Positions 3,236 to 45,380 of a DNA stretch of 64,000 bases are shown in pieces. The stretch covers positions 22,012,001 to 22,076,000 of the forward strand of contig OU612072.1 of the NCBI GenBank assembly GCA_914767715.1, given 5' to 3'. The stretch is from Membranipora membranacea (Eukaryota; Bryozoa; Gymnolaemata; Cheilostomatida; Membraniporidae). The position numbers and the translations under genes are program-made. Under the pieces are notes generated by a model that had not been told where the DNA came from, ran no database searches, and was given only the letters and a program-made list of their open reading frames with translations. Each line of letters opens with the position of its first letter. Position 1 is the first letter of the stretch.

Positions 3236-3461
3236 TCAGCAGGCTGACCCGTTCAACTCCCTCTGTGAAAGAAAAGCACAACATACTGATAATGTAAGAT
3301 AAGATAATTCTCTTCTAAAGAATAACTTCCATTGACATTTCATTAAACTTGATATTCTGAGCCCCCTGTGTACCGAGAGTTGCAGAAAAATGTAAAGATG
3401 GTTCAGTAAGCAAAACATGTTTACCCATATTCCAGAGTCCTGGCTTTGGGTTCCATGATAG
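3236..3461 (-). CDS. Possible terminal exons of the Roco-caspase gene
   Basis: Two small segments are phase-compatible with the donor at 3574: 3461-3425 (acceptor TTGCAG, reads IMEPKARTLEYG, donor GTAAAC) and 3365-3236 (acceptor GTACACAG, 42 residues then a stop). The second has no recognisable domain and a hydrophobic, Cys-rich composition, so it may be chance. A transcript is needed to choose between this and a stop at 3516. Confidence 0.3.
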
Positions 3462-3574: not shown

Positions 3575-3761
3575 CGCTATAAACTAGTTCAGTCACAGCA
3601 GGATTTGGAGATACGGGATGAGTGAGTTCATGAGGATGTTCTGTTCTCATATTAACTCCTGGTGACAGATAGAGCCTCCTCTCATTAGTGAATGTACTGA
3701 TTGTAACAGGAAGCTGTCCTACGCCTTCCTTAGGAGCCTCCTCTCTCACTATGGTTTGAAT
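3575..3761 (-). CDS. Caspase p10 C-terminal exon
   Basis: Phase 0 after acceptor TTGTAG. It reads IQTIVREEAPKEGVGQLP, then STFTNERRLYLSPG, matching the last caspase strand (stL.k.lYF.PG). It goes on about 20 residues to a possible donor GTATGA at 3574. If that donor is skipped, the frame runs to a stop at 3516. The end of the protein is therefore ambiguous. Confidence 0.75.
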
Positions 3762-6700
3762 CTACAACCAAACAGGATGTTTTAATATGTCAGGTAATAC
3801 TTTGAGGCGGTGGATAAATAATTTTAATCAAGAGGACAATACCCTGAACCTAGTAGCAGTCTCCAATGTATTGAAAGCTGGTGGTATCTTAAACACTTGA
3901 TTGGAGGTAATCTTATCTGATGAAAGAAGATTTTAAACAAGACAAAAATATCACAAATCACAAACTATTCCCCAAAAAACAAATTTATATTGACAATGCA
4001 AAAATGTAAAAATAAATTTGGATTTTTTTCACATAATTATTTCTCGAACTGGTATATACTGTGCCCAAGCTTAATCAGACAGCAAGTGTAAAACCAGTAT
4101 CAGGTATGTGCAATAAGGAAAACAGTCTTACCCTTTGTGGAAAAGAAACATTTAAAACCAACAAACATACCATTTTACTGAGTTCTTCAGCGTGTTTTGA
4201 TCCTGCTTGCTTGTAGAAGGTTGCGACTAAAGCACGAATGAACAAAGATCCTTTGGTCCTGAATCTCCATGAAACATAATCTGTCAAAATTTATCATGGG
4301 ATGTACAATTGAACATAGTACATGGGTTCACTGTGGAAAACGTTGGTTGTGTTGTGCAACTTTGACATTTCATATGTTTGCCTCTAGCCTTTGAAATATG
4401 ATGAAGTTGATAGGTTTTCCCTAAGTGTTGGCTCATTTGCTATGATATGATATATCGATATTCGTGAAACTTCAAAAATCTCATACTGTGTGGGATAGAA
4501 ACTATGGAAGAGTGACAAGGAATCAAATCAAGGGATTGCATTGAGTTGCGGGAGAATCCATTCTTATCGGGTAATTTTCTATGGTTAATCCATTGTTAAC
4601 AACTTTTTATTTGGCTTAAAAATGAAGCAGTCACATTTATAGTTACCTGGAAAGCTTGGGTGGAATACGATAAGATCATCCATACACTGATGGCTATCAT
4701 CTGGAGGTCTTTCTGTGTCTTGTTGTTGCTGCTGTGGTTGCTGTTGTTGTTGTTGTTGTGACGGTTGTTGTTGCTGTTGATGTTGTGGTAGCTGTTGATA
4801 CTGTCGTTGCCGTGGCTCTTGTGGTCGTTGTGGGGAGGCTATTCGTGGCACTGTTTTGACTGAACTTGGTATCCGTATATCTTCTTCTGGACCGGAAGCT
4901 GTTTTGAGAAAACAAAAGTAATAAAATCCAGCCCCAAAATCTGATTTGTCTTTGTTACCTATGTAATATTGTCATTGAAAAATAATCAGCCTAAAGCTGT
5001 AGCTCCACGTAACGATTTTTACATCGATTTGGGGTCACGAGTGGTTAATCGGTGGATCTGCACGAGTGATTACTCGTGTTAAGTGGACATCGAACCTGTT
5101 GGTCTTTTGCCCGAGTGATCTAGACGATCCTCTATGCTGATTGGTTGTTGATTGCTTGCTTAAATAATTACGCGGTTAAACACGTCATCTATCAAATCGT
5201 GACAGGCTATCAAAAATGGAGGAGTTGATAATATCTGTAGTTAAATCACATCCTCCTATTTATGATAAAAAAGACCATAACTACAAAGATAGGAGTGGTG
5301 CTGTAGTGAAAATATGGAAGGTAATAGCTGTATCACTTGGAAATGGAAGTTGTCCTGACATGACATCCATAGTATAGCATAGGAAAATCAATTTTACAGA
5401 AGAATGAAATTTTATTTGGTGAAGATTCTAAGTGTCAAAGACCCGGATTTAATATGACATCACTATATCCGGTCATTTGTTAACACGCCCATTAAATATC
5501 ATTGGTCAATCGATTGAACTGAGGGAGTTAATTGGTCAATCTAGGCACCTGATTTATTACCCCACTATGACTCACTAAACCATCGAGTACTAATTCATAG
5601 GCCTGTGTAGCAGTGTGAGATCGGCCTAGCATGTCTAGACATGCCATCGGCCTGTGATTACATCGTTACGTGGAGCTACAGCTTAAGACTGGTCCCTGTC
5701 CAGACTGCACAAATAATGTTATTAGGGAACAGAATGAACATGAAATACTATTTACCAGTTGTCTTTGTTTCCACCTCGTCTTGTACACATCTCTGCTGTG
5801 ATTCAGGAGATGCAGTGGATCCTTCATTCTTCATTTTTCTCACTTAAAAAACAAATTCTTTTTTTACTATCTTGCTTGTGCAATTAGGATTATGCTTCCA
5901 TAAAATGATTAATAATTAATGCACTGCGAGATTTCAAATATTCAACATTGCAATTACAGAAATCATAGCATACTTTAATTGCAAATCTCAATAATCTATT
6001 ATGGAAGATCAATCAACAGATCTTCACACAAAAAAGATGCCAATGTTAAAAGTGCCACACCAAAGCTTACACACCTCCTGAGCAGGCCTGAAGGATCACC
6101 ATCTTGGGTTTTCCCCTCATTGCAGGAAAGTTTTGTGATGAGAGCAGTCTGTATGTGTCCACTAGTTTGAGGGTTCCATCTTTGGTTGAGATTGTACCAT
6201 AACCACCGTGACTCATCAACACCAGTGCAAACATTCCCAGGTTAGCATGTACAGATGTACCAGTGTCTCTATCCACATACTGTGTCTCTTTGTGTATCGC
6301 CTCAACCACTTCCTATATCAAGAACAAATGGAGATGAAATATTGCATTACCATCAGTAGATGTCCCGTTTTGGTTGATTCGGTTGATTTGGTTGACTTTT
6401 TGCATAGTCTAGATTCGAATACTTTATTATGATAATTCATGAAAGAGTCAGTAGATATTTTTAAAGTTATTTTCTTCATTTACTGTATGCAAAAAAATTG
6501 ATTGTCAAGCATTGAAGGGAGTAACCTTCAAAGGGAGGGGTCCAGTTTGGGGATGAGATGTAGTCACGTTTTAGTTTTGATTAAGTTGTGAGGTCATATA
6601 TTTTAATATCGCTCTTTCAAAGAAAGATTGCCGGCTGCAATGTTGTAAGACACCAAAATGTGGAGATAAGCCCTTGCTACAGGGTACATAAATTTACATC

Positions 6701-9643
6701 TCATTAGTTGTTGGATGATATGATTACCTTGGCACTCCATTCTCTATTATCGCTCAGCTTGCTTACAATGAATCCAAACTGTTCGAACATTTCACGTATG
6801 TTTTCGTAGTCATACTGAGATCCTTCTCTGTCCTGTTCCTTCTTGGGGAATCTGATATTGATTATGAGAGCTCTTCCTCGAGAAGCAGTCATAGTATAAA
6901 CCTTAAAACGGACAAAAAATTTCAATTGTTTTATTAATTCAATGTCCACTGATGTGGAACCATTCGCCTCAGACCGACTTGATCAAGGTGCTAATCGCTT
7001 AAGAATGTCAGTCAGCATTTTCAATCCTTACACAGACAAAAGCTTATGTCTCTGAATTCATTATGGTAGGTTATAGCATCAATCTTCAGTAGATAAGAAG
7101 ACATACTATTAGGCCTAATTAGTTTGTCTTAACATCACAATTACCTTATCTTTGTGAGGTGTAGAATACAAGGTGGTCTGGAAGTTTGGCAGCATGCTGA
7201 TGCGTGCTTGAGTTTCATCATTCATGATTCTTCTGATTTCATCAGTTGATGGGTCCAACTTCTTCACATATTGAACTAGTGCTTCATGAGCAGAGTCAGA
7301 GAGTTTGAGGCCTTTTATGGAGTGAGAAAAAATATTCGTATTAATGACGATCAAGTTATGGACTTCATACTGAATATGAGCAGTGAGAATTTCATCAAAT
7401 TCTATGAGTGAAATATATTCACAACTTGTTGGATAGTAGCACAAGGGGATAAGTCATAAAGAAGATCAACCAGAAACATCATTTCACACAATTCCACCAA
7501 TCTGTGATATTTCAATCAAAAACTATTGGACTCGCAAACTATAATGTGACTCAGCTAGCAGTAAATATAATGAACACCGTGGAGAAAATAATTCAACAAT
7601 TTAATCTTACATGGTGTCTTGAGTACAGCTGGAACATCATGTTCTGATCCACATGATACAGTGTCTGCTGTCGGCTGTTGATTGCTTGATGGATCGCATA
7701 TCGCCTGGAAGTCTAACAATGCAGGGTTAGGCTTTTCACGAATGAGGCAATGGGGACAAGGAATGTCATAACCTATCTTTGTAGCTGGCCAGGCAAGTCG
7801 AGCTTCCGCTGAAAGCTTTTCGAGTAGGTTGGAGAAGGTCTTCCAACATTTCAAAATCGTTGAGATAGACCCTTCAACTCTGATGGTGACTTTTTGTGCC
7901 TCTTTCTCGTTGATAAGGTGAGTATCGAACTCAGCTGCGTCAGACCGCTTACTACTTTTCGTTTTAGCTGAGGCACCGTTTCCATAGGGGAAGACTTGAT
8001 AGCTACTAGCCATGACTTGAAGAAATTTCACAGTTAGCTGATGGAAAGCGTAGTTAGGTACTTTCAACCCAACAAAGTTCAAACAGGCACGGAGCTGAAT
8101 CTGAGCTGTGTGAAGAGAAAATGTATGTTCGGGCATGAAATATGGCATCAAGTAGCAACCATCCTGATTGTTGACAACAGTCGGGCCATGCAGGAGCTTG
8201 AATTTCTTCATAAGTGCAACTGCAATTTCAAAGGGTATCTTCACAGAGTTGGACAGACACATTTCCAGATCTCTCTTGCTAATCATACCATTTCTCAGAT
8301 AGCTGCTTCCTGTAGACACATTGACAGCAGAGGGCTGTACGACTAAATCACTGATCATGGTATGATCATAGAGTGATCCTATGAGCTCTGACACAGCTTC
8401 TATTTTGTGAAATATTTTATCAGCTAACTCACAGTCATTTGGTGACTCCTCACCAACATCATCTTCATCCGAATCAGACTCATCATCTTCATCTGAATCA
8501 GACTCATCATCTTCATCTGAATCAGGGAAATAAACCTCATCTTCATCATGTGAATCAGACTCAGGATACCACAATATTTGACCTGATCGCTTCATGAAGT
8601 CGAGAACAGTCTCAGGGTGCGTCAGAGAAGAATAAATCTGGTCATATGTGAGAAAGCTGTCAGTATCTCCAGTAAAAGGCTCTAGCCACACAGACGGGAT
8701 GAAGCACATAGAGTTCTTCACTCGCCTGATAAGACACTCTTCTAAACGCTTGAGGTCTTCTGAATAGTCTCCTGCATCAACAGAAAATCCTAGTGAGAAT
8801 ACGTTATTTGCACTGAACATAGACAGAGTTTTGCTGCCATCAGAGGATACAGCCAGGTCGCAGAATTCATTTCCATCATCAAGAAGTTCACTTGTTAACT
8901 GTTTAACAGTATTTCTAAAATCCCTGCACAGTTCCTCATAAAGCTCTTTCTTGTCCACATATTTGTCAAGGTGAGTGAATATGAGGATAGGCTCTTGTAT
9001 TCTATCAGTTATCTTGATCAGGTGCGAAAGCCAATCAAAGGCCACCCTTCTGGTGGCCTCCCGCAGTCCCCTTTCTTCTCTTAGGGTCTGGAACTCCGGC
9101 ATATTCACAACAATCACTGGTACGCAATCCTTTCGCACTGTCAGGTGATACCCGTAATGGTAGACTTCGTCGCCACCAAAGTCGATCACCTTGACGCTTA
9201 TTGCTTCTGATTCAGGACCTTTCAGCTGGACTTCCTGAAAACCGAAAACTTTGGTTTTTTGAACTTTAGGATCATCTGATGTTAGAGGCTTGAAGTTCTG
9301 CTGCATGGCACAGAGAAGAGACGACTTTCCTGCCTCCTTTCTACCAACGAGGGCGATTGACGAAAGTGTTATTTGGACTTTACCTCTCTCCAAGTCATTG
9401 TAGTAGTCTTTAATGGCACCCAAACCTCCTTCACACACAACATAGGGAGGCTCGATAAGGCTGTTGCAGTTAACGCATTTGAGCTGTGTTACGTTCAGCA
9501 CAAATGGATGAAGACGGCAGAGAGAAGAGTTATAACTGAGGTTCAGGTCCCTCATGGAGACTAGTTCACCGATCCATTCAGGTAGTTGTTTGATGCTGTT
9601 GCTCTGCAATTCAAGCGATGTTAGCTTTCTCATGTTTCTCATA
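3575..9643 (-). CDS. Core of LRR-Roc-COR-caspase fusion gene (8 exons)
   Basis: Eight exons join in frame: 9643-7611, 7311-7145, 6901-6728, 6312-6075, 5842-5756, 4898-4647, 4280-4171, 3761-3575. Phases at the borders are 2/1/0/0/1/1/1/0/1, and every join keeps an open frame. The product reads LRRs, Roc GTPase, COR, acidic stretch, linker, caspase p20, glutamine-rich linker, caspase p10. Roc/COR pairing defines Roco proteins (LRRK, DAPK1, MFHAS1 families); caspases are cysteine proteases cutting after Asp. A caspase fused to a Roco is not an arrangement I can assign to a named family. Phase agreement with LRR exons further upstream (23.8-46.2 kb) suggests a product of roughly 1,390 residues. 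Inferred role: ligand or damage sensing through LRRs, a GTPase/dimerisation switch, and direct protease output. The exact C-terminus is uncertain. Confidence 0.88.
4171..4280 (-). CDS. Caspase p10 core exon
   Basis: It joins the preceding exon at phase 1 (codon GAT) and reads DYVSWRFRTKGSLFIRALVA: the p10 signature (YvSWR..kGS.FI.AL), which forms the S1 pocket and dimer interface. It continues YKQAGSKHAEELSKM to donor GTATGT at phase 0. Nothing essential appears to be missing. Confidence 0.92.
4647..4898 (-). CDS. Glutamine-rich intersubunit linker and start of caspase p10
   Basis: Eighty-four codons between acceptor CAAAACAG and donor GTAACT, phase 1 at both ends. It begins SGPEEDIRIPSSVKT, then holds a Gln/Pro tract (runs of up to seven glutamines, mostly CAA codons, about 4700-4820). 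It ends MDDLIVFHPSFPG, matching the p10 opening (D.L....T.PG/DYVSWR). Polyglutamine in the activation linker of a caspase is unusual. The opposite-frame reading (Thr-rich) is an artefact of the same repeat. Confidence 0.85.
4995..5683. mobile_element. PIF/Harbinger-like element in a caspase intron
   Basis: Perfect terminal inverted repeats AGCTGTAGCTCCACGTAACG at 4995 and its complement ending at 5683 are flanked by a TAA duplication (4992-4994, 5684-5686). A 3-bp TWA target site is the Harbinger hallmark. The 689-bp body holds a MADF-type ORF but no transposase, so it is non-autonomous. It lies in the intron between the two linker exons of the caspase. Confidence 0.85.
5216..5377 (+). CDS. 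MADF (Myb/SANT-like) ORF remnant of Harbinger element
   Basis: A 53-codon ORF starts MEELIISVVKSHPPIYDKKD and continues YKDRSGAVVKIWKVIAVSLG. This is the start of a MADF DNA-binding domain (LI..V..hP.LYD....yKD......W..IA..LG), the second protein of many PIF/Harbinger elements. It stops at TAG within the domain, so it is truncated. It lies on the strand opposite to the host gene. Confidence 0.7.
   Translation: MEELIISVVKSHPPIYDKKDHNYKDRSGAVVKIWKVIAVSLGNGSCPDMTSIV
5756..5842 (-). CDS. Intersubunit linker exon 1
   Basis: Acceptor TTTTTTAAG, donor GTAAAT. It reads in phase 1 as VRKMKNEGSTASPESQQRC and on to the donor with no stop: a charged, Ser/Gln-containing linker. In caspases the segment after QACxG is the p20/p10 linker, usually cut during activation. 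Asp residues here (VQDEVE) are possible sites, but that is inference. Confidence 0.65.
6075..6312 (-). CDS. Caspase p20 catalytic exon (SHG and QACSG)
   Basis: Seventy-nine codons plus one base, from acceptor TGATATAG. It carries both catalytic residues: the histidine in LMSHGGYGTI and the cysteine in KPKMVILQACSG (family consensus QACxG, most often QACRG). Spacing between them matches caspases. Donor choice: GTGTGT at 6074 leaves phase 1 and keeps the next exon open; the better-looking GTAAGC four bases on would leave phase 2 and bring a stop. The first is therefore preferred. Confidence 0.92.
6728..6901 (-). CDS. Caspase p20 first exon
   Basis: Fifty-eight residues in phase 0 at both ends (acceptor TTTTAAG, donor GTAATC). 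It starts YTMTASRGRALIINIRFP, the first beta strand of the caspase fold (RG.ALIIN), then carries REGSQYDYENIREMF, the family's R.G...D...L..MF helix, and the strand FGFIVSKLSDN. The length and order match the amino-terminal half of a caspase large subunit. Confidence 0.9.
7145..7311 (-). CDS. Linker exon between COR and caspase
   Basis: It joins the Roc-COR exon at phase 1 (codon TGC) and the caspase exon at phase 0, giving 56 residues starting CLKLSDSAHEALVQYVKKLD. Acceptor is ...CATAAAAG and donor is GTAATT. It is predicted largely helical. I see no death-domain signature. It leads into the caspase large subunit and may act as a prodomain-like or cleavable linker. Confidence 0.75.
7611..9643 (-). 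CDS. Roco exon: C-terminal LRRs, Roc GTPase, COR domain
   Basis: One 677-codon open exon follows acceptor TTTTTTTCAG and ends at donor GTAAGA. Residues are numbered from the Met at 9642. LRRs at 1-60 (LTSLELQSNSIKQLP, then MRDLNLSYNS). The PPYVVCEGG segment at 65-73 precedes a Roc domain: P-loop GRKEAGKSS at 100-108, the DxGG motif as DFGG at 154-157, and the guanine-specificity motif as THLD at 223-226. A COR-like region follows from about residue 300, interrupted by an acidic stretch, and ends with a CPHC motif typical of Roco C-terminal regions. In known Roco proteins Roc binds GTP and COR mediates dimerisation. The exon is intact, arguing against a pseudogene. The next exon joins through a split codon (T|GC). 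Confidence 0.92.
8461..8526 (-). repeat. 24-bp tandem repeat coding an acidic tract inside COR region
   Basis: Two full 24-bp units (8461-8484 and 8485-8508, one base different) and a partial third encode DESDSDED-type acidic repeats on the minus strand. The length keeps the frame. It sits in what should be the COR domain, so it is probably a surface loop that expands and contracts. Confidence 0.85.
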
Positions 9644-12410
9644 CTGAAAAAAAGGTAAACAGGATGCTACAATTGACCTGCTTCAGATCTAATATCTTGC
9701 TATTAATAGATTCACGACACACTTTCTTTCAGCTTGCCAACAGCTGTTTTGAGAGTGGTAGACATCATGACATGTTCAAACTAGTAATGCGGCTTAGACA
9801 ATGTATGAAGTTCACTTTCTATCCTGGCATCACAGTGCTGACAAAAAAACATAGGATAATTCAACAAAGTGCCAATCAAACCTTCACCTGCTTTATGTGT
9901 TGCAATAGATAGAATATCGATAGGATAATATAAACTTGATGTGGCCCACTGACACAAAGCTATTCTATCTTTGCATAAGGATACGCCCACAAAAAAGGAT
10001 GAATGATAATTGAAACATATCCTGTTTATCTAATTTGACTGATTAGCTTCTAAATCTTGTGACCTGGTCTTCATAACCAGTTTAATAACTGCTATTCATT
10101 CAATGGTTCTGACTATACAATGCATAAGCCAAACTTCCTTTGTTTAAAATGGTTGTATAAAGCAGTTTTTTATATTTTGGGAGCTTATCCACAGCTCAAT
10201 TTTTTCATCAGTCAACCCCTCCCTCATTTCACTCTCCTGTATGTAACTCTTACTATTCTAACTAGTGCTTTGCAGAGGATGTGTACCCATTAATGCAAAA
10301 TTTTGCATTCTGTTAGTCATATGAGTTCATTTTTACTCTCTGATTGAATCAACGGCACCACTTTAAATAACTTGCTGCCTGTCGCTCTAACTAATATGTC
10401 GCACACTCAGTCGGTTCATTTTATCTGTTCAGTTCCAGCTACTGATTTGTGATAACATGGGGTACAAGTAGCCCGTGGAAAAGCGATTGGAGGTGAAAAG
10501 TTTGCTGCTTGCCTTTATCGTCTTTAGATTTTTTAGCAATATCTTAGTAAAACTTTTCATGTCACACTATTAGATGACTTGCAAGTGATTTCTTTAGCAG
10601 TCAGGGGACAAAAATGATTTGTGTTATCCCCTTAAAACACTAAAAATCCCAACCACCAACACATCATCAGGATAAAATCCGAATTACCTGGCTAACCGGT
10701 TTTTGCCCCTACCACTTGCCTGCCAGTTTAACTGTGTCCTTTCTCTCTAACTAAAATGTTACACACTCAGTGATTTCATTTTATCTGTCTAGTATTGTAA
10801 CTTCATATTATACAATGCGTATAAGTAACCTGTGGTTCAAAAATTTTGAGCTAAAAGATCTCGGTTTTGGTTTGGCTATGTCATTTATAGCTCTAAATTC
10901 CTTCTCCAGGGTAGCCACTCGTGTTTGTATTGCTGAAACTATTCAAGCCAACACAGCAGTTTAAATCAATAAATACATAAACGCTTCTGCTGAGTCACTG
11001 AATATCAAGAAAACGTCAAATGGAAAACTCAAGATTCATACTTGTCCAGATTGACCCTAGATTTTCTTAAATTCCCTATCTCAGTCTGGAAAATTGTATG
11101 AAAATTGCAGTAAGTTATCAGTTGCAACACATTATGTAGTAAACACCATAATATTGCGTCTTTGCAACTCCAATCTTCAGTTGAGAAGAGTACAGAGGGC
11201 GTAATGTAATTTATTTCATCTTTAGACCACATATAATAGTATACAATGTGAATTAAAATCTTTCAACCCAATTTATATATATCATTGGATCAAATCTTTC
11301 TATTCGCACTCACCCTCTGCGTTCTACCAACTTTCAGAAAATTCCACCCACACGACTGATATTAACATGGTTATATGAGTGCTGAGAAAGCCAATATAAT
11401 TTCGCATTCTCACCGATGTGACATTTTTAAGTTTACAGATATTTCAGATTTCTCACCATACTCAAAAAAAGAGATCATATGGCTCAGGGGGGGGGGGGAG
11501 GGGGTGTGATGCAATGTTCTCTGATGGTTGTTTATTTGTAAATGTAAACATCAACATCATATACTATACTTTTACACCTTCGCATCCGATCATTCCTACA
11601 CAGTCTGCTTGTACTTCATTAAATCAAAAATAAAATAAGCCCCCTGAGTGTGTTACGTGTAAGTACGAGAGACAGGAGACAGCTAATATTGCTGGCAAGT
11701 GGCAGGGAAAAAATTAAGCTAGCCCAGTAAGTTCTATTTCATCACAATTATGTGTTTGCGGTTGAGATTTTGGCTTATTTTAATGGGAAAACATAGAAAT
11801 ATTTTCCAATGGCTGCGAGTGAAAATACCTGCAAGTGATCCACATAGTATCACATAAAAATCTTTCCAAAAAAATGGGATTAGCAATCTAAAAATCTAAT
11901 ATTTCCATACCCATACGTATCTTCTCAAGCTACTAGAAGTGCATATCATGCTAGGGAAACCATGACGTGAATGGTTATTATTATTATTATAATCTCATAT
12001 GGCACATAGCTCCACAATATACCAACTCTATGGACTCGGAAAGATCTTCCTTGTGATTTTGTGATGGTTTATTTAGTCAACGCAAACAGGTATGCATCTT
12101 TTAATTTAGAAATTGTGGCTAAAATGGAATATATTTTATCTGCTTCGATTATTAAATGCAGAAAGCTAACAAGAAAAGATGGATTTGAGAGTTGGTGGCA
12201 TAAGTTAAGAGTGTCAGTCGCTCATAGTGCATGCGTTGGAGGTTATGAGATTGGTTGACCCCAAAGGCTTGTCAATCGTCAGACATGGGTTACTTTGATT
12301 ACAGATTTTAGCAAGAAACTGATCTATGAATACTGAATTGCAATCCACCTATTATGATAAAGGGAAGGTAACCAAAATATGTGCAGCTCTTCATTCATAG
12401 CTCTAGATCA
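9644..12410. other. Intron sequence with diverged direct repeat
   Basis: This is part of the large intron upstream of the Roc-COR exon. No exon is supported. Segments near 10370-10500 and 10720-10850 are diverged copies of one sequence (TCTCTAACTAA.ATGT.ACACTCAGT..TTCATTTTATCTGT). A run of 12 G lies at 11487-11498 followed by a G-rich stretch. Confidence 0.5.
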
Positions 12411-12510
12411 ATTTTGATCCAATTTGCTTGCATTTAGAGTTTGAGCCACTGGCAAAAGGAATCAGGATATTTTTCCCTAGTTTTTGGAGTTGTCCTAGGC
12501 CATGTGGATG
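12411..12510. repeat. Dispersed repeat, copy 1
   Basis: The segment (TGATCCAATTTGCTTGCATT...GGAGTTGTCCTAGGCCATGTGGA) recurs at about 43450-43550 with moderate divergence. There is no coding content or terminal structure that allows classification. Confidence 0.6.
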
Positions 12511-12777
12511 GTAAGAGTTAATAGTTGGATTTATTGGGATTGAGAACCTAAAATCATAAACTTGATTTGAAAATTTTGCCATGATGACCTGAGAAATGTT
12601 TTAAAATTAAATAGAAGATGCGAGTAACATGCTTTGATAGTACAGCATGTTTTGAGTGTGTTGACATCAGTCGAAGAGGATGACCTTGCAGGCTTAGTCA
12701 AGTTTGTCAACCAGATTAAAATATGCTACTCCAGATTAGGTGATGTTGGACAGCTAAATTACAGCTAAATTACATCA

Positions 12778-13915
12778 CTATGCTCCAAATTGATGACCTA
12801 AATGACCTACTTCCTCCCATGTTCCGGTAGGAATGGATTGAGAAACACAGACTAGCCAGTACTGAGGATCAACTTTATCCTTTCCTGCCTTGATGTCCTT
12901 CCTAGAAAGGAAGCGGGAAGTGGGAATGAGGTTCGCTGCGAGAACTGGTGAGGCTATATCAGTAACAAGAACAGATACAAGGTCAAAAAATGTAAACTCA
13001 GATGCAGGTAGTAACGCAATTACCGAGTCAGTCAATAAGTCAGTCACATGTTGCATTCACCCCGAAACAAAACATTCATTGATTGACTGCAAGCGATTCT
13101 CTAGTCTCTCTATAGATGAGAAGTACAAAGCTTTGAAAGTGTGTCATTTCTGCTTTAGGTGCTTGAGTAAACACCCCAGGAATAAATGGAAAGCTATTTC
13201 AAAGCCTGTCTCTAAATGGCTGCTTTAGACTTGACGCCTACATCAACAATATACCTGGAGCCATACTGAGATGGCGGGAACAGCAAGTTGCTTTAGTAGG
13301 AGACATCTGCTAGATGTACAACTCCATCCATATAGAGATGCTGGTACAGCAATGCCATAGACTCTTGCGGCGTGACCTAGATTCCCGCTGGCCAGATGTA
13401 TACTCTATAACCAGAGTTAACACGGGAGACCGCCCAGCAGCCGTCATAAGTGCATAAGCCGTTTACATGACTGCAGAGATGAATGCATCCTACTTTCCAA
13501 AAGTAGCACTACTACTAAAGCTCTCCACCTATGTGGACGACATGGTTTACTCTGCCCCTGAGAATCTGGTAAACCCCTCTTCAGATTCAAACCCTAAATA
13601 TAGGACCTAAATGCTCTGTGTTTAATAGGAACCAGTCTCAGAAATGATAGTGACAGAGGTCAAGCTTAACTTTTCTCCAAAGAAGAGAGGAGTTGATCAA
13701 GGACAGAACTTGACACAGGATCAACTACCATCAGCCATACCAAATGTCCTAACTAGACGCATAGTTTTAGAGCAGACAATGAAGACTTATGATCCATTAT
13801 GAGTATACTGTGCTTTTACACTGACAGCCAAGACTCTGCTCAGAGCAACTTGGTCACCGAAACTGGGATAAGATGAACCTTTGCCTGAGCAACTCAGGAC
13901 ACAGTGGATGACTGT
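12778..13915 (+). mobile_element. Decayed BEL/Pao retrotransposon fragment
   Basis: At 12890-13228 a gag-like frame shows CCIHPETKHSLIDCKRF and CHFCFRCLSKH, the BEL/Pao zinc-knuckle region. Around 13345-13575 the frame RRDLDSRWPDVY...TRVNTGDRPAAVIS...LSTYVDDMVYSAPENL is BEL reverse transcriptase with the YVDD active site; an in-frame stop interrupts it. Around 13640-13910, KLNFSPKKRGV...PNVLTRRIVLEQTMKTYDPL and LPEQLRTQWM match the BEL RT/RNase H junction. Stops and deletions make it dead. No LTRs were found. Confidence 0.75.
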
Positions 13916-13919
13916 TGCG

Positions 13920-15040
13920 ATTTAAACAAGTATGCAATATAGGAAACAAGGTTCCTAAGCTTTCTCTAGACACTGAACAAATCATTCCACAAAACTATAT
14001 TACCAAAAGCACCAAGTGTGATAGTGTGATAGATTCTGAGGGCGTTCACATGACATTTCCCACAAATATGTTCTCAGTTGGTGCTGCTGTGGCAACTTCA
14101 TATAGGCTGGTAAGACTAGGTTCAATCTCACACATGATATGAACTTGTACTATCTCTAAACAAAAGGTAGGCCTACAACAGCATATACCACTAAGTCCCT
14201 CAAACAGTGGCACATCGATTTAGGTCACAATATGAATTATGAAGATATAGTCAAACTAGCCGACTAGCCGGCATGACTATCAGTAAGTCGTCCCAACCAG
14301 GTTCCTGCATAGTGTTTCAAGAGAATAAGATGACCAAACAGTCGAAAAGTCAGGCTGACAAACCAATCCTGACTGCTGCAACTCTGCTGCGTGTCCACAG
14401 TGACATACGAGGCCCTTTAGGTCCCCCATCCAAACAAGGCCACCGCTGTTGTATCAATTTTGTTGATGAATACTCTTCTATGTTTCTTTATTTATTGTCT
14501 AATGTCCAACGATGAGTCACATGTAACTTTTAAACAGGTCCTTGGTGATATAGCTCCTATAGGGCAGGTAAAACAGTTACACACGGACAACGGCGGTGAG
14601 TACACAAGTAAGGACTTTCTGTCAGTATTACTCGCAAGAGGTATAAAACATATTACAACAGCTCCACACTCACCATATCAAAATGGTAAGACAGAACGCT
14701 TCTAGCGTAGTCTGATGGAACTGACAAGTGCTAATACTCCAAAACAGCTATTGCCAGTACGCAGTCTATCTCTGAAATAGAGGACTCCAGCGAAGCACTG
14801 GTAAAACTGCATCTATGAGCTATTTTCAAAATACTAGCCTGCCATGCGAAATATCCATACATTCGATGCTAGGTGCACATACAACATCAAACCGTATAAA
14901 CACCAACTAGACTCACAAGGTAAACGTGGCATCTACATCTGCATCTCCTTGTTTAGTCTAAAGAAATCTAATGACAACCTGACATGGCCACATAGCTCAT
15001 TCAACCAGTGGCAGGGTCCAAAACCAGGAATATTGTAAAA
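13920..15040 (+). mobile_element. Decayed Ty1/copia retrotransposon fragment
   Basis: Near 14020-14080 the frame VIDSEGVHMTFPTNMF resembles the copia protease start (DSGA..HMT..; here DSE). At 14390-14515, HSDIRGPLGPPSKQG and FVDEYSSMFLYLL are integrase core. At 14560-14700, LHTDNGGEYTSKDF and HITTAPHSPYQNGKTERF hold integrase catalytic motifs. Near 14890-14930, YKHQLDSQGKRGIYIC is downstream copia sequence. Frameshifts separate the pieces. It abuts the BEL/Pao fragment at about 13920. Confidence 0.75.
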
Positions 15041-16090
15041 ACTGCTCTTGTCACCTGGTTATTTTGAAAGGTCGGGGTGACCAAGTAAATTTTCATTATC
15101 AGAATTACAGTATTGTCGAAATGTTGTAATGTATAGTAATGTGTAATAGAGCAACACAGAGTAAGACTCGTTTGACCTCTTCAAAAAGTAAGGGCATGTT
15201 GAGTAATCTGACTAACTAAATAAGGGCACTGCTCAATATTATCCGAAGTTATACCCGCTTCCAGATTCCTCTCAGTGTGCATACAGCAGCCTCAGCTAAC
15301 CCTCAGAGATTCGATAATCAGTTGCAACCTCAGAGTGCAGATGGTTTGCATGGTGTCACATTAATAACATATATGCCTGAGCTGATCCTCGGAGGATTAA
15401 TGTGTATATACAAACTCTTTATACGATTCTCTGAGGTTGCAACCTCTGTCAGTTTGTTTAAACCATAGCATCATCGATAATACGCCGTCGCTTTCTGTGA
15501 AGGACAACTTTGGTTATATCCTTTATGTGTAAAGCAGCAATTATAGTTATTACTTAGATTTTATCGAACTGATGCTGCCCAGGAAATTTTGAAAGGCTGA
15601 AATAAGTTGCTAGTGCAGTCTTGTCAACAAAAATAAATCAATAATGATTGATTAGAAATAAGTATGTGATTTTTGAGGTTTTTTTAGAAACTTGCTTGAT
15701 ATATCAACACAAAACTCAAGGCCAAGTAGTGTTTTGCTGTTCAGGCGATGTCAGCTCACTGGTTCAACCATTTAATTAACCAGAGACAGTAAATTTTGTA
15801 TAGCTTTTGTAGATTTCACCGCAGAATAATGCAAAAACTTGTTGCATATTAGTGTGCATTGCCAAAGACTTAATGAGTAGCAACAAAAGCCCAAATTTTT
15901 CACAGAAACCTAGGAATGACTTTTCAATTGTGAGGCATGAACTGTTGTCAAAATAGGAGAGCGGAATAGAATTATTTGACGATTTCAGACAACTCCCATT
16001 CTATTTAACATTTTTACATACATTTCCTGTTGCCAAATGTGGGATTTTGTGTTTCTATAAAGACTATCTTTCATGCCATGATCTCAATAC
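15041..16090. other. Intron sequence related to LRR-cassette introns
   Basis: No exon is supported. From about 15600 on, the sequence is a diverged relative of intron segments seen again at 16.3-16.8, 38.5-38.8 and 41.2-41.6 kb (for example ACTTTTCAATTGT.AGGC and AACCAGAGACAG), marking an old copy of the LRR-cassette unit. Confidence 0.45.
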
Positions 16091-16094
16091 TGAC

Positions 16095-16157
16095 AAATCT
16101 CTACTTAGATTGTTACCATGTAAGTATAGCTTCCTCAGAGATGTCATTTCAGCAATG
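16095..16157 (-). pseudogene. Truncated LRR exon
   Basis: After acceptor TCTGTAG the minus strand reads SIAEMTSLRKLYLHGNNLSR (S completed by the upstream split codon), the same opening as the intact 147-bp LRR exons. The LRR then breaks off, with no second repeat or donor. This is a relic of a duplicated cassette and is unlikely to be spliced productively. Confidence 0.65.
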
Positions 16158-16255
16158 CTACAGACACAGAAATATGATTTCCACATTATTCCTTGTTTTA
16201 TACCATTTTTTTTTCAGATAGCCCAAAGATTTCTTTGCCTTTGACAGATCTAAAT

Positions 16256-16580
16256 AAGGGGCCTAGGTTGTCTCGACAACAAAAATAGATGAAATAATTC
16301 TTTAGAAATAAATTTGATCTTTTTGCAAATTTAGATGATGCATCAATACAACAAGCAATGTTTAGTAATTTTTTGCTGAGCAGGTGCTGTCCGTACACTG
16401 GTCTCATCATCTTATCAACACTAAGGGGCCTAGGTGAAATAAATCTTTAGAAATAAATTAAGGCTGTGATGTTTTGATCTTTTTGCAAATTTAGATGATG
16501 CATCAACACAACAAGCAATGTTTAGTAATTTTTTGCTGAGCAGGTGCTGTCCGTACACTGGTCTCATCATCTTATCAACC
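16256..16580. repeat. Tandem duplication of LRR-intron segment
   Basis: The block starting AAGGGGCCTAGG at 16256 recurs directly at 16423. The ends (GGTGCTGTCCGTACACTGGT...CTTATCAAC) are nearly identical, while the second copy has an extra AGGCTGTGATGTTTT. High similarity implies a recent event. Confidence 0.85.
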
Positions 16581-17001
16581 AGAGACAGAATGTGTTTAGC
16601 TATTGATGATTTTTCCTCTGAGCAATGCATAAAAACTGTTGCTTAGTAGCATTCATTGCCCAACACTGAAGGAGTGACTACAAAAAAAAATCTCACGAGG
16701 TATATGATGATTTTCTTCAGCCAGGGATAAAAAGGATCACTTTTCAATTGTCAGGCAATTAGGCGCATGACTAATTCTCAAAATAAGAGAACTGTGTGGC
16801 ATCGTTGACAGTTTCAAGTGATGAAAGAACTCCTAATCAATTCAATTCTGATACTCGTTTTTTGCTACATGAGGGTTTTAGTGCATTTAGAAAGATACCC
16901 TTCATGTGCTTTGACCTGAATGATGACAACAGTAGGATAAAGATGAATAAACTGATGCATCGGCAAATTGGTGTCATTACCTTTCACAATCTCTCACTGT
17001 T

Positions 17002-17182
17002 GGCAATCATCAAAATCACATCGTCAAATTCAATTGCTATTCTACGCCATCACTATCTGCTACACACTACTATGGCTAGTAAACCTACTTCATAATCATT
17101 TGCACCTATCATAATAGTGTGTAGCAGCTAGTGATGGCGTATAATGACAATTGAATTTGACGGATATGATTTTGATGAAATT
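17002..17182. repeat. Hairpin element, about 180 bp
   Basis: The left arm at 17008-17075 (ATCAAAATCACATCGTCAAA...) pairs with 17112-17176 with a few mismatches, leaving a loop of about 36 bases. It is consistent with a MITE, or with an inverted duplication. No clear target-site duplication was seen. Confidence 0.75.
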
Positions 17183-17409
17183 GTCTCCAACTTATCAATT
17201 GAGAAAAGATGAACAGAGGTGTACAAAGCTGTTGTGAGCCTTTCAAGTTTTTCAACTGTGTTTCCGAAAACTTATAAAATTATTATACACTTGACCACCA
17301 AGAACCCAGTTGTTTAAAAATAAATAAAACAGTTGATTGAAATCAGTTGTCATATCACACGCCACATCCCGAAGCATGGGCGGCAAAATACTATTATATT
17401 ATATGCCAC

Positions 17410-17540
17410 AATATCTGCACCAGATTGCTCTCTGTTTGCGGGCAGGTCGGAGCAAACCCGGGGGCCAACCCGAGTAGTCGATGGACTGAGGTAGGATTTT
17501 AACCGCTAAAGGTCTTATCCAGCTGAGCCGCCTCATACTC
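17410..17540 (-). repeat. Possible tRNA-derived SINE head
   Basis: The minus strand reads GAGGCGGCTCAGCTGGATAA, resembling a tRNA A box, and about 60 bases on has GGGTTTGCTCCGACC, a weak B-box relative. The stems do not fold into a proper tRNA, so a SINE relic is more likely than a tRNA gene. Confidence 0.35.
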
Positions 17541-18584
17541 CGTAGTTGAAACCTTACACAATTTATCACATGTGATGAATTACACTCTGAAATCAGTTTA
17601 TGGGTACCAATGACTTTATCACAGGGGAATTTCATATCCATTTACCAACAGTCGATGACTCCACAATTGCACATTCCCCCATTACACAAATAACTCTTTT
17701 ACCAAATTAAAAAAATGGTGAACTTTTATTTCTAATTCTATGGACAAATCTCTGTTTACCTCACTGGTTATTGATATTCAAGGCTGGCTGAGAGTAGGGT
17801 ATTGCATTTGCATTTCAATCATGGAATGTATCACTTGCTAATGTACAACTACATGATAGGATTAAATTTCTTCCATTATTCCCAGGCATTAACAGAACAC
17901 TGAAACGCAAAGGAACATAACTCCTAATATATGAATTTAGTAGTGTAGACATGCAATACAAAATGCGGTGTGAGTAATCACGTAATTGATGCTATTGGAC
18001 TAGTCCTGTGGCAGCCCCTCCCCCCCTATCTTCCGCTTCAATTTATAAATATGCAATGTAATGGTTATAATGTACTTTGCATCTTGTTGCATGTAATAAG
18101 CGGCTAGTTGCTCAAGATGGTTCAAACAAGGGAAATTGATAAAATAATGAAATAGTTTCAGAACTTTTCAAAGCAAAAAATGAAGCAATATTAAGGTTCC
18201 CTAAGAAACAAAATAACTCCTAGCTGTTAGCTGATTTTAGCAAATAAATGTTGTTGCTATAAGACGCGTATGCCCTCTCTCGATGAATTATTCAGTTTAG
18301 TTCAGTTAGGTTATATAACTCACCAATCGTCCCTAGTTAGTATTTACACAATCCTTAATTTCTGACATTGCATAATTTGTTGGTTTAGATGATCAATGTT
18401 TGACACATTATCATTGATAGGGCCATTAGCAAGACACTATCTGAATCGGCAATAAGTTTGTTGGCATTATCTCATTCAGTTTCAAGTCTCGTCTTTTCCC
18501 ATATAAACTCACTATGACGTCATTTGCTGATATTATGTAGGCCAAAAAGGGTACTTCTATGCTGTGAACACTACATCAATCAAT

Positions 18585-18640
18585 ACCCCCGGCCCAAGCA
18601 CTCCATAGCCAATTCTGACTAATGAGAACCTACATTGTGA
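18585..18640 (+). repeat. Dispersed repeat shared with 55140-55195
   Basis: The segment CCCAAGCACTCCATAGCCAA, followed by TCTGACTAATGAGAACCT, occurs again at 55150-55190 next to an AT-rich GTTTATTTATATACCACTTG segment. This looks like a short interspersed element; the copy here is truncated. Confidence 0.55.
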
Positions 18641-21600: not shown

Positions 21601-23834
21601 TAGTTGTTGCTCAGGATAATCTAAACTGATGATGATGACCAATATGCCTTCCTAAAATTCATAAATGTGTATGGCCGCTCACTACCTACCAACAAGCTTG
21701 CCACTTGATAGGTGTTATGCTGGAGTCAAAAAAGTTGCCGATAACAAACTATGGCAGACCTTATCTTATTGTTTTATACAACATTAATACAACTTAAATA
21801 GCTACACAGAATATGTACCATTGTTAGTTTATATTGTTTGTTTGTTTAATTTATGACTTCTCATCCGAGAATGCTTACATAATAAAAGTAGTGTGCTTTC
21901 AAAAGCCCCTCTAAAAATATATGAACAAAAATAAAATAAATCATTTCAAATGGCATAAAACTCAGACCTTATCAGTATTGAGGACTGCCAAATTTACATT
22001 CAGCAGATTCAGCTCTCAAATATGCAATCACTATCCTGCAGCAGTTTGATGAAATCAATCTCATTCACAACAAGTGAAATAGTAGCCATACCTTTTTTGA
22101 TTTTCCTAAAGGCTGTCAAGTACTATTGCCAAAATTCACTTTTATTATTCGTTGAGTGATTATAATTTGTTTAGTGGTGTTGGCATTTGCAGCGTAACAG
22201 TTGATAATCACTGAAAACCTATAGTAGTTGTAGTGGGACCTAATCCATGTTTATGCACAATAATTATCATAGGCAATGGATCTAAGTGATAATTAATTCC
22301 TATAATTACAGCTACAACAATTAATTACTGGCAAGAATCCAGTCAGACAGCCCAAATTTGAGTCCTTTGTGTCAAAATAAAAAAAATCTCAATATAAAAC
22401 ATTGTTGATAGCTAAAGACAAAACAGCCAGCTTTTACTGCGTGAATAGCATAAATTTTCCCAGGAAATAGGTTTCATTTAACTCTGGCAAAATTAATGTC
22501 AATACACAGCATTGAGTTTTGAATTTCGTTCGTACACACAATGGAGTTAGGGCTGATATCTTCCACAAGATACCATGCCGGTTACATGTTGAGTTATCAT
22601 CTAATTTTTTCAACTCCCAACACAAATTGCGATATTCTTGCTTAGCATCTTGTACACAACATTTACATTGATACTAAGTTTTTGACTCCTTATGCGGTCA
22701 AAATATCATCGATCCATATTGATATAGGTCGGAATTGTATTGACAAACTGTATGACAATGGACAATGTTTCTACAGTTCTTGAGTTCAATTTCATCAATG
22801 ACTTAGGTCAACGGCGATAAATTTGGATTCCAGGAGGAAGGCAAACAGCACAACCATAATTATAATGTTTAATGCAGCTTTGTTTGAGTGAATTAAAAAC
22901 AGGAATCCATCATCCCGAGTTAAACTCGAGATCACATTTTAAAGGATAATGATTTCAATGCTTGCTGCTCATGTGTTAATCTTACACCTGTCAAACTTTG
23001 CAAACTTTGATGATTATACTATGTGATCAAGTCAACCCAGGGATTAAATTTTGATCTCTTGGTGTGAAAGGTTTGATCCTACTGTTCCATCCATTCTGTT
23101 GTCACCGAAGTCTAAATATATTTTGACAAATCCTTGATTTTGTTTGCAGTGCGAAGATACTCATGTTAGTATCGCCTGAGCCTGATTTTCTGACAATATT
23201 TACAACTTTTTGATGGGGTCGTAATTTATAATTTGTAATTTTACTTTGCTGGACAATACTATAGTATAGCTTCTGAACGGAGGCAATTTTCATTGATTTA
23301 ATATCAGCAATTCTACTGCCAGCCAGTTATGATATTACAAAACTGAATGGCAGCTGCCCTACTCATTGGGGATAAATTTACTTTTACGATGGTAAACACT
23401 CTGATATCTATTATTTCGACTCCACATTATGGCGATGGCGATTGGGCATTTTCAAATTCCAAGAAAATTTTGAAGGTAATATAGTTTAAAAAAATTAAAC
23501 ACATTCAATCGATCTGTGGAAGTGATGTAACCATTTTCTTGACAGTTGGCTAAACATTGAGTTTGCCAAATTGAGATTGATTCCTAATAAAATGTAACAG
23601 AGATTGATGTGAAATGGTTCTTGAAAACAATTTCCATTGAGAACTAAAAGGCATTCAGATTGCATTACATTGTGGTAGCCAGTGTTTACCTTTCGGATTG
23701 ATTCTGACACTTCTCACTTGTGGGTGAGCACAATTCCAAAAAATTTTAAAATCAAGACACATACATACATACATGCGATATAGTTTTCGATGTGTTATTT
23801 CAATAGCATAATCCAAAAAACAAACTGAACATAC
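18641..23834. other. Intron sequence without recognised genes
   Basis: I see no exon. There is a run of 14 G at 19803-19816, a short tandem repeat of TGTTTTATTAGC-type units at about 21447-21505, and at 21770-21840 a segment related to 44565-44640 (ACACAGAATATGTACCAT). Around 20160-20640 the sequence has a less AT-rich, degenerate-retrotransposon look, but no domain could be confirmed. Confidence 0.45.
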
Positions 23835-23981
23835 CCTGAAGGTAACTCGGACAGATGACAATAACTCATATCCAGTTTCTCTAGTCTTGTAAGTCCTGAT
23901 AGCGTATCACTCAACTGATCATCTGTACTCAGATTGTTTTCACTGACATTCAGCTCCTTCAGTGATACCATCTTTGAAATG
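23835..23981 (-). CDS. LRR cassette exon (intact, 147 bp)
   Basis: Between acceptor ACCTTGCAG and donor GTATGT, phase 2 at both ends. It encodes two leucine-rich repeats: ISKMVSLKELNVSENNLST, then LSGLTRLEKLDMSYCHLSEL, ending LPSG through a split codon that joins in frame to the Roc-COR exon at 9643 or to another cassette. It is nearly identical in design to 30914-31060. That it belongs to the Roco-caspase gene is inference from strand, phase and the absence of any other gene between. Confidence 0.8.
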
Positions 23982-24070
23982 CTGCAAGGTACCAACAAAA
24001 CATTGAAATTTGTTCATAACAGAGAGTGGTGAAATCTGAATTCGACATTGATAATAAGATGTTGAAGGTT

Positions 24071-27390: not shown

Positions 27391-27399
27391 AATGACCGC

Positions 27400-30913: not shown

Positions 30914-31060
30914 CCTGAAGGTAACTTGACCAGATGACATTTAATCAAATCCAGTTTCTCTAGTCTTGTAAGTCCTGATAGTTTATCACCCAACTGATCA
31001 TCTGTACTCAGATTGTTACCTCCGACATCCAGCACCTTCAGTAAGACCATCTTTGATATG
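30914..31060 (-). CDS. LRR cassette exon (intact, 147 bp)
   Basis: Acceptor AATTGCAG, donor GTAGGT, phase 2 at both ends. It encodes two LRRs: ISKMVLLKVLDVGGNNLST, then LSGLTRLEKLDLIKCHLVKL, ending LPSG. It is the closest relative of 23835-23981; the second halves are almost identical, so this is a fairly recent cassette duplication. It splices in frame to either neighbour. Confidence 0.8.
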
Positions 31061-38480: not shown

Positions 38481-38817
38481 TACAAAAAATTTAATGCGGT
38501 AATGTTTTGATTTTCTTAAAATTTGGAATGATGTAACAACACGACAACCAAAGTCAAATAAGTAATGTATTTGCTTTACGGTTTCTCAACAGAGCAATGC
38601 AAAAACTATTGCATATTAGCACTCACTACCCAACAATAAAACAAGGACAACAAAAACCTAAATATTCCTTTGCGTTTATGATGACTGTTTTCGATCAAAG
38701 TTTAGAAACAATTTATGTTTGTCAGGCAATTAAACGCATGACTAGTTCACTAAATTAGAGAACCCTTGAAAATGTTTGACAAGTTTAAGTGATGAGACAA
38801 CTCCCAGTGCAGGTGCA

Positions 38818-38924
38818 GTGTCTCCAGATTAGTGAGTGCTGACAATGTCTGACCAAGCTGATCATCACTACTTAGATTGTTATTGTCTAAGTTCAGCTGC
38901 TTCAGCGATGTCATCTTAGCAATG
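38818..38924 (-). pseudogene. LRR exon lacking its 3' end
   Basis: After acceptor GTCTGCAG the minus strand reads IAKMTSLKQLNLDNNNLSS, then LSALTNLETLHLH, closely matching 41812-41958. After WEL it runs straight into intron-type sequence (TCTCATCACTTAAACTT) without a donor. A deletion fused exon to intron. The copy is probably dead. Confidence 0.7.
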
Positions 38925-41811: not shown

Positions 41812-41958
41812 CTGTCAGGTATCTTAGTCAGCTCACAGTGGCACAGGATCAGTCTCTCCAGATTAGTGAGTGCTGACAATGTCTGACCAAGCTGATCATC
41901 TCTACTTAGATTGTCATTGTATAGGTTTAGGTACTTCAGTGATGTCATCTTAGCGATG
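41812..41958 (-). CDS. LRR cassette exon (intact, 147 bp)
   Basis: Acceptor TTCTGCAG, donor GTAATG, phase 2 at both ends. It encodes two LRRs: IAKMTSLKYLNLYNDNLSR, then LSALTNLERLILCHCELTKI, ending PD plus a split Ser codon (AG|C) shared with the next cassette. It has the same length as the cassettes at 23.8 and 30.9 kb but is a different subgroup, closest to the relic at 38.8 kb. Confidence 0.8.
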
Positions 41959-44735: not shown

Positions 44736-44876
44736 CTGTCGGGCATCTTAGTCAGATTACAGGCAAACAGAGTCAGAGATACCAGATCTGCAGTTAGTGC
44801 GGATAGACACTGATTCAGCTCATCACTTCCACTTATGTGAACCGACAGATGCCTCAGTGATGTCATCTCTGATAAT
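44736..44876 (-). CDS. LRR exon (variant, 141 bp)
   Basis: Phase 2 at both ends, donor GTAAAT, weak acceptor GTTATAG. It encodes LSEMTSLRHLSVHISGSDEL, then LSALTADLVSLTLFACNLTK and MPD. It shares the E/K-MTSL start and the TKMPD end with the 147-bp cassettes but is six bases shorter and more diverged. It joins the exon at 45125 through AG|A (Arg). Confidence 0.75.
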
Positions 44877-45124: not shown

Positions 45125-45380
45125 CTCAGGCTTTTGAGGCTATTTTCTTGCATCTCATGCAGCAACAGATATTTCACTGATTTAGATAGCCTCTCTGATA
45201 ACTCTGCAGGTGCGTCATCTATAAATAATAAAGCTATCTGACCAGCTGAAGCTGTCTCTCTCTCCAGCTCTACTAGAGTCAGCTTTCTATCGCTGATCAT
45301 TAATCGCCCCCAGGTTTGTCCCCGTACATCAGGATCATCCCAGTTACTGTCACCCTGCTCCTCCCAATCTACCATGTATC
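45125..45380 (-). CDS. Exon upstream of the LRR cassettes
   Basis: Phase 1 in (acceptor TATTACAG), phase 2 out (donor GTTAGT), 85 residues: MVDWEEQGDSNWDDPDVRGQ, then TWGRLMISDRKLTLVELERE, FIDDAPAELSERLSKSVKYL and ENSLKSL. The end flows into LRR sequence, so it looks like an LRR cap or the end of an upstream domain. I recognise no family. The open frame and clean borders support a real exon. Confidence 0.65.

Follow-up and report, generated by a model that had tools for sequence, protein, structure and literature searches.

A probable family of genes joining leucine-rich repeats, a Roc-COR GTPase and a caspase in the bryozoan Membranipora membranacea

Caspases are thought to be fired by platforms assembled from other proteins: in the apoptosome, the inflammasome and the systems of CARD and DED caspases, the protease is recruited in trans through death-fold domains, with NACHT or NB-ARC NTPases. 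A locus in the bryozoan Membranipora membranacea raises the question of whether sensor, switch and protease can be encoded in a single animal gene. It lies in a stretch of 64,000 nucleotides, referred to here as the window (assembly GCA_914767715.1, contig OU612072.1; C8:22012001-22076000), of a genome of 339,339,785 bases in 18 contigs. Exons predicted on the minus strand of the window together encode leucine-rich repeats (LRRs), a Roc-COR GTPase and a C-terminal caspase. The reading favoured here, with a probability of roughly 0.62, is that the locus is one member of a large, expanded animal family that carries all three in each predicted polypeptide, most likely as an intracellular receptor for cell death or inflammation.

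The core of the gene had been noticed in an earlier note made from the sequence, which described a Roc-COR exon with the motifs GRKEAGKSS, DFGG and THLD, spliced in frame through a linker exon to a caspase. Both parts of this description hold. The Roc-COR exon (9643-7611) is an open frame of 677 codons between the acceptor TTTTTTTCAG and the donor CCAT/GTAAGA, and the caspase motifs SHG and QACSG are found in 6312-6075 and YVSWR in 4280-4171. The predicted joined exons match Peptidase_C14 at 118 bits (cut-off 21.4) over profile positions 1-229 of 233, and both the p20 and the p10 part of a caspase (C14A) domain are present. The best caspase match in the PDB has an E-value of 2.8e-13, and with caspase-4 the alignment reaches as far as the end of p10. 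SHG, QAC and the Arg residues of DREGS and VSWR pair with the PDB caspases 3sir and 6nry (the 6nry chain itself lacks the Cys); the window caspase therefore has the catalytic His and Cys as well as the Arg that we take to line the Asp pocket (S1). At E-values up to 1, Pfam finds no CARD, DED or death domain in the front, linker or caspase parts, and no NACHT or NB-ARC, the NTPases of NLRs and inflammasomes. A candidate exon at 3911-3843 (codon score -0.14) was dropped: with it, the Peptidase_C14 match has 110.8 bits and spans positions 1-206, as compared with 118 bits and 1-229 when it is omitted. A further candidate, 5842-5756, is doubtful and is dispensable for the caspase match.

The Roc assignment is firm as a profile of paralogues and weak from the window alone. 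The Roc of the window alone scores 22.4-23.6 bits, under the Pfam cut-off of 27, and its Roc-COR alone matches a PDB structure of Roc-COR, presumably from Methanosarcina, at 2.1e-5. A profile of 14 aligned paralogues matches the same structure at 7.9e-19, a Roco protein presumably from Chlorobium at 2.4e-18, the Roc-COR fragment of the latter at 6.3e-14, LRRK1 at 2.7e-15 and LRRK2 at 1.4e-14, while its top matches are LRR proteins (e.g., SHOC-2, 4.4e-32). Since the 2.4e-18, LRRK1 and LRRK2 matches cover LRR and Roc jointly, their score is partly due to the repeats; the 7.9e-19 and 6.3e-14 matches begin beyond most of the LRRs. With Pfam, Roc is found at E<=0.01 in all 14 aligned paralogues, and the columns AGK, D.GG and TH.D, corresponding to the G1, DxGG and THxD motifs of Roco GTPases, are invariant among them. 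The COR label is weaker, and rests on position and partly on the profile: in the window, position and length fit a COR domain, and the COR-B match is weak (0.015-0.033). The Pfam search of the joined protein that the earlier note had proposed thus bears out the caspase, and gives only a sub-threshold Roc and a marginal COR-B for this copy taken by itself. A single-sequence fold of the Roc-COR exon (predicted local distance difference test score, pLDDT, 33.7) was uninformative and was set aside.

The case for a family comes from the whole genome. The Roc-COR exon as query gave 128 matches (from the best 66 of 299 candidates scored), which form 66 loci. The profile PF08477 gave 148 matches (the best 150 of 372 scored), 67 of them with open frames of at least 350 amino acids and 39 of these new, bringing the total to 105 loci. 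Peptidase_C14 gave 145 matches (the best 140 of 515 scored), without the split caspase of the window among them. The copy counts are lower bounds, at least 105 Roc-COR loci and at least 181 caspase clusters; the latter number is very high for one genome, and a part of these clusters lies outside the fusion family. With two lists of caspase matches combined into the 181 clusters, a caspase match lies downstream on the same strand in 82 of the 105 Roc-COR loci, 0.7-3.4 kb past the Roc match (median 2.0 kb), and in none of the 105 is one found upstream or antisense within 8 kb. When each locus was moved by 20-100 kb in 500 rounds, 5.9 loci were paired on average and 16 at most, as against the 82 observed. 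The C14 list alone pairs 57 of the 105, and the sequence itself shows 7 more; here the shifted loci gave a mean of 4.1 and at most 9 pairs, and randomly placed ones a mean of 0.2. Starting from the caspases, a Roc-COR exon was found just upstream in 11 of 12 stretches fetched around C14 matches, a non-random choice of seven on C8 near the window and five representatives, and in each of three more stretches, on C1.

Caspase-like exons are present at every Roc-COR locus that was read downstream, a minority of the 105, with no search aimed at other effectors; among them is a clear caspase at L055, which is unpaired by the C14 list alone. The pattern of the catalytic dyad occurs in all 21 loci in which a complete second p20 exon accompanies Roc-COR or its COR part. 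The loci thus form a multigene family whose products are probably LRR-Roc-COR-caspase proteins. No relatives outside this genome were found by tblastn with the Roc-COR exon among other genome contigs (50 pattern matches) and viral contigs (3).

Whether the Roc-COR and caspase parts are joined in one gene, as the earlier note held, depends on the region between them. The linker exon is entered in phase 1 and ends in phase 0, which is also the phase of the caspase start at 6901, so that the joining is in frame throughout. Judged by open frame and splice sites alone, such an exon is modestly unlikely by chance: the longest exon reached 173 nt or more in 30 of 2000 shuffles and in 22 of 630 overlapping windows from 9700-23000, in a test that used 7311-7139 (173 nt), 6 nt longer than the adopted 7311-7145 (167 nt). 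With a codon score trained on the Roc-COR exon, the linker reaches 0.15 in frame as against -0.12 and -0.29, which is higher than any of 72 open stretches taken as a sample from 17000-30000 (the highest has 0.124), a region containing one LRR exon and a long interspersed nuclear element (LINE). A counterpart of the linker with shared residues and the same donor position recurs in the C8 paralogues; its tblastn match is weak in L024 and L048. More generally, a phase-1 GT stands at the same point of the COR tail in all 26 of the distinct loci that were checked (as GTGAGT, GTAAGT, GTAAGA, GTAGGT, GTCAGT or GTTAGT), a set that spans copies only about 24-27% identical to the window and omits L030 (collapsed as a duplicate), L050 and the partial loci L004 and L006. 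The codon split at this point encodes, in most loci, the Cys in P-C; L011, L012, L013 and L015 have Q-C or Q-R, L019 has P-S, and L046 and L047 have P-G. In L014, the frame is free of stops from COR through the linker. Finally, the distances between copies in Roc-COR and in caspase p20 are correlated (Mantel r 0.82 over 19 loci, with 0 of 5000 permutations as high).

An arrangement of two neighbouring genes, one for LRR-Roc-COR and one for the caspase, conserved in tandem and co-duplicated without being spliced together, would account for some of these results, because pairing and distance correlation are also expected from co-duplication alone. It would also fit the stop that the unspliced Roc-COR frame meets at 7555, the ATTAAA/AATAAA hexamers at 7605 and 6935, and the ATG three codons into the caspase exon (VYT-M), where a separate start is possible. 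However, it accounts poorly for the donor at the end of COR in all the loci checked, for the coding linker common to the C8 paralogues and for the continuous frame of L014, and the VY ahead of the Met is kept in the caspase exon of C8 paralogues (VYVMT, VYRMT). Two separate genes are thus considered very improbable. A different doubt is that the copy in the window, or a large share of the family, may be in decay or without catalytic activity, with the caspase acting as a regulator or decoy. Two decayed LRR exons in the window (at 38924 and 16157) and the changes in the first p20 exon, E3 (6901-6728), would agree with this: compared with the near copies L022, L023 and L035, E3 has 9.5-10.5 non-synonymous and 0.5-1.5 synonymous changes, too few for a call on selection. 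Likewise, the G1 motif pattern was not found in L012 (C8:22.746 Mb), which is possibly GTPase-dead, and L013 has Glu in place of Gln directly before the active-site Ala-Cys. Against decay stand the predicted exons of the window, which are all open, the dyad pattern kept in all 21 loci, and the low ratios of non-synonymous to synonymous change (dN/dS) among diverged C8 paralogues. Between the window and L009, L011 and L014, dN/dS is 0.21-0.25 for the LRR end with Roc, 0.16-0.25 for COR, 0.13-0.16 for E4 and 0.11 for E3 (two of the three computable), values that are rough because dS is above 1. The linker gives 0.23 against L011, on 31 codons only, and 0.32 between L011 and L012; comparisons with L024 and L049 are mostly saturated. 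Between the window and its close copies L022 and L023, COR has 0.09 twice and E4 has 0.2 and 0.3. Conservation is thus clear between diverged copies, whereas close pairs carry few changes. Decay or silence, of this copy or of much of the family, is regarded as unlikely. To a similar degree we doubt that the genes serve development or housekeeping as a GTPase-caspase system and do not form a receptor repertoire, since its copy number, its clustering on several contigs, the turnover of LRR exons and a mosaic copy resemble the pattern of immune receptor families.

The turnover is seen in the front of the gene. The earlier note had placed the gene at 3575..9643, which covers the core exons; by in-phase LRR exons it probably reaches upstream to about 45.4 kb. 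Phase 2-2 is common to the LRR exons 44876-44736, 41958-41812, 31060-30914 and 23981-23835, three of which are exactly 147 nt long, and the Roc-COR exon is likewise entered in phase 2, with the LRR register unbroken over the 23835/9643 junction. The links among the front exons follow from phase and register. When joined at the predicted splice sites, the LRR chain matches LRR_8 at 2.8e-23 in four stretches, and these repeats lie ahead of Roc, as in the LRR-bearing Roco groups. The LRR hidden Markov model (hmm) was seeded with the exons at 44736, 41812, 38790, 30914 and 23835, so that E-values there are given by construction. The candidate first exon (donor GAG/GTTAGT, acceptor TTACAG before 45380, by eye) is tentatively assigned to the same gene from its phase and position; alone it has no Pfam match. 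Between the intact phase 2-2 exons sit the two decayed ones (38924-38790 and 16157-16095), which have lost a donor or are truncated, and this suggests gain and loss of repeats. The mosaic copy, L028/L035 (C8:22419.7-22423.2 kb), is 56% identical to the window in Roc and 68% in COR, as compared with 95% in the linker, 97% in the second p20 exon and 84% in E3, which suggests an exchange of fronts and backs between copies. Other near copies lie at C8:22267190 (98%) and C8:22831928 (97%). The exons of the window are listed in Table 1.

Table 1. Predicted coding exons and exon remnants of the LRR-Roc-COR-caspase gene, in the order of transcription
Positions	Strand	Feature	Remarks
45125..45375	-	Candidate first coding exon, starts MVDWEEQGDSNW	ATG 45375; ends in phase 2; open frame 45456-45070
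44736..44876	-	LRR exon, 141 nt, phase 2-2	LRR pattern; splice sites by eye
41812..41958	-	LRR exon, 147 nt, phase 2-2	LRR pattern; splice sites by eye
38790..38924	-	LRR exon remnant, no usable donor, end approximate	LRR pattern
30914..31060	-	LRR exon, 147 nt, phase 2-2	LRR pattern; splice sites by eye
23835..23981	-	LRR exon, 147 nt, phase 2-2; repeat register runs on into the Roc-COR exon; LRR pattern; splice sites by eye	
16095..16157	-	Remnant of an LRR exon, truncated, with approximate end	Matches the LRR hmm at 9.5e-9 (outside the seed set)
7611..9643	-	Exon of 677 codons for the last LRRs, the Roc GTPase and COR	Contains an acidic insert around 8450-8560
7145..7311	-	Linker exon, 55 codons, phase 1 in, phase 0 out	Counterpart in C8 paralogues
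6728..6901	-	Caspase p20 exon 1 (E3), starts VYTMTASRGRALIIN, S1 Arg (presumed) in DREGS	Entered in phase 0
6075..6312	-	Caspase p20 exon 2, catalytic MSHGG and QACSG	
5756..5842	-	Doubtful in-phase linker exon	Phase fits; its 28 codons have a codon score of 0.18
4647..4898	-	Exon of the poly-Gln linker between the subunits; its end, DTERPPDDSHQCMDD, is Asp-rich	
4171..4280	-	Exon of caspase p10, contains YVSWR	
3575..3761	-	End of caspase p10, QLPVTISTFTNERRLYLSPG, with the tail	
3425..3461	-	Probable final coding exon	Reaches stop with or without another splice

Several results weigh against the receptor-family reading. Unpaired are 23 of the 105 Roc-COR loci and 99 of the 181 caspase clusters. 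Among 12 unpaired caspase loci that were inspected (L001, L002, L004-L008, L017, L018, L051-L053), six have Roc-COR or a part of COR, five have none within the 1.5-kb flanks that were covered, and one (L018) has LRRs but no Roc-COR; four of the five seem to be other caspases. COR-A is matched by Pfam in only 3 and COR-B in only 4 of the 14 aligned paralogues, and the listed PDB matches of the profile cover LRR and Roc and end near positions 183-234 of 642, hardly into COR. For the linker exon, tblastn gave no match in L043/L049, L046, L047 and L050, and its dN/dS is 0.77 between L009 and L014, on four changes. Between the window and the close copies L022 and L023, dN/dS is 0.50 and 0.78 for Roc, and 1.55 and 1.56 for E3. 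To these is added a difficulty of mechanism: a Roco protein of Chlorobium forms a closed dimer when nucleotide-free and an open monomer when bound to GTP (PMC11052575), and as this protein monomerises on GTP, simple dimerisation driven by GTP does not fit.

With these points in mind, the receptor-family reading would lead to the following scheme. The LRRs, diversified as in-phase exons are gained and lost, would sense a ligand, and this might open the LRR/Roc-COR fold and alter both its nucleotide state and its balance between monomer and dimer. Caspase domains would then meet, perhaps through the Roc-COR dimerisation that the earlier note had suggested, cleave themselves in the Asp-rich, poly-Gln linker, and cut substrates after Asp. 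A CARD, DED or death-domain adaptor would be unneeded in this proposal, because the protease is already attached. If the behaviour of Chlorobium Roco holds here, the dimer may be the locked form, with activation via a larger assembly; alternatively, the nucleotide-free dimer may be the active one. The proposed proximity trigger is shared with the apoptosome, the inflammasome and CARD/DED caspases, while their death-fold, NACHT and NB-ARC domains are unmatched in the window gene.

How does this architecture compare with published ones? The closest counterparts are bacterial LRR-AP-GTPase-COR proteins, in which a caspase is among at least 24 C-terminal effectors (Kaur et al. 2021, eLife 10:e70394, PMC8195603). 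The window gene has the domain order of these AP-GTPase conflict systems, LRR-Roc-COR-effector, and in both cases fast-evolving N-terminal LRRs, a Roc-type GTPase, COR and a C-terminal effector come in several paralogues per genome (PMC8195603). The bacterial systems are prokaryotic and have mixed effectors, whereas here caspase-like exons stand at every locus read downstream, split by introns and in dozens of copies. As the domain order is published for bacteria, this kind of protein is already known, and it is the animal version with a caspase that seems to be unreported. The statement in the earlier note that known Roco proteins carry kinase or death domains is too narrow, since versions with a caspase (in bacteria), TIR and CARD have been published.

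Among animals, the sea anemone gene 'NG1' encodes LRR-Roc-COR-TIR (PMC5094078), the same chain with an effector-type domain, TIR instead of a caspase. Aplysia has TIR-ROCO proteins (PMC9334734), and Trichoplax has ROCO proteins with CARD and death domains, TIR being given in a figure legend (PMC4104024). MFHAS1/MASL1 and LRRK1/2 have the LRR-Roc-COR core in common with the window gene, in line with the matches of the 14-paralogue profile to LRRK1 and LRRK2; these proteins and DAPK1 carry either a kinase or a death domain, or lack an effector at the C-terminus (PMC6337361, PMC4104024). Amphioxus has LRRs-caspase and TNFR-caspase hybrids (Zhang et al. 2008, PMC2575513), in which, as here, a sensor is joined directly to a caspase, an arrangement proposed to shorten the route from recognition to apoptosis; Roc or COR is not mentioned in the main text (PMC2575513), though an unrecognised Roc-COR is possible. 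Brown algal ROCO receptors (Teng et al. 2024, PMC11378527) resemble the present genes in their LRR-ROC-COR order, shuffling phase-2 LRR exons and expanded families, but no caspase is mentioned. The sponge Dysidea avara has an expanded family of LRR receptors, with CASc and COR among the domains listed in a figure legend; unlike the proteins described here, these NLRs are based on NACHT (PMC12909245). An LRR-Roc-COR-caspase protein in an animal was not reported in the literature surveyed, which consisted of partial listings with most subscription journals outside its scope.

The dozens of copies look like a large set of ready-armed cell-death receptors. It is tempting to go further and to regard the genome as encoding about one hundred or more self-armed receptors, single-chain 'inflammasomes' in which an LRR sensor, a Roc-COR switch and a caspase are united and whose diversity comes from the turnover of LRR exons and from swaps of fronts and backs between copies, as the animal counterpart of the NLR repertoires of plants; this broader proposal is tentative, and we hold it at somewhat less than even odds. 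If it is true, a GTPase and a protease would replace the NB-ARC and the TIR or CC of plant NLRs. A sensor, switch and caspase in one molecule, in dozens of paralogues, would show that animals have reached, or retained, a sensor-GTPase-caspase design described in bacteria, and would offer a simple system for asking how Roc-COR controls output, a matter that is central to LRRK2 too.

Some of the unpaired loci have features of their own. In L018 (C10:12.12-12.13 Mb), LRR exons and a pre-Roc segment are followed by the caspase with no Roc-COR between them, and a masked part lies further upstream. The four apparent other caspases, L001, L002, L007 and L008, have no Roc-COR in their 1.5-kb flanks: L007 (QACRG) and L008 resemble ordinary caspases, L002 has an altered IDCNN, and L001 (C4:18.27 Mb) is a one-exon caspase-like frame without the context of the active-site Cys (DSSTGS), possibly a pseudo-caspase that does not belong to the fusion family. 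The only one of the 23 unpaired Roc-COR loci to be read downstream is the cluster L054 (C3:19.206-19.212 Mb), where tblastn gives no caspase at 1e-2; by eye, IMSHG and VQACQ occur in downstream frames, with the look of a very divergent caspase.

Within the window, an open frame at 33145-32858 on the minus strand holds MSSDNRCYRSDESVDS; its possible phase-0 donor is incompatible with the LRR exons. The long introns also harbour fragments of LINE reverse transcriptase and integrase, at 29478-29939, 35850-36569 and 14421-14705 (+).

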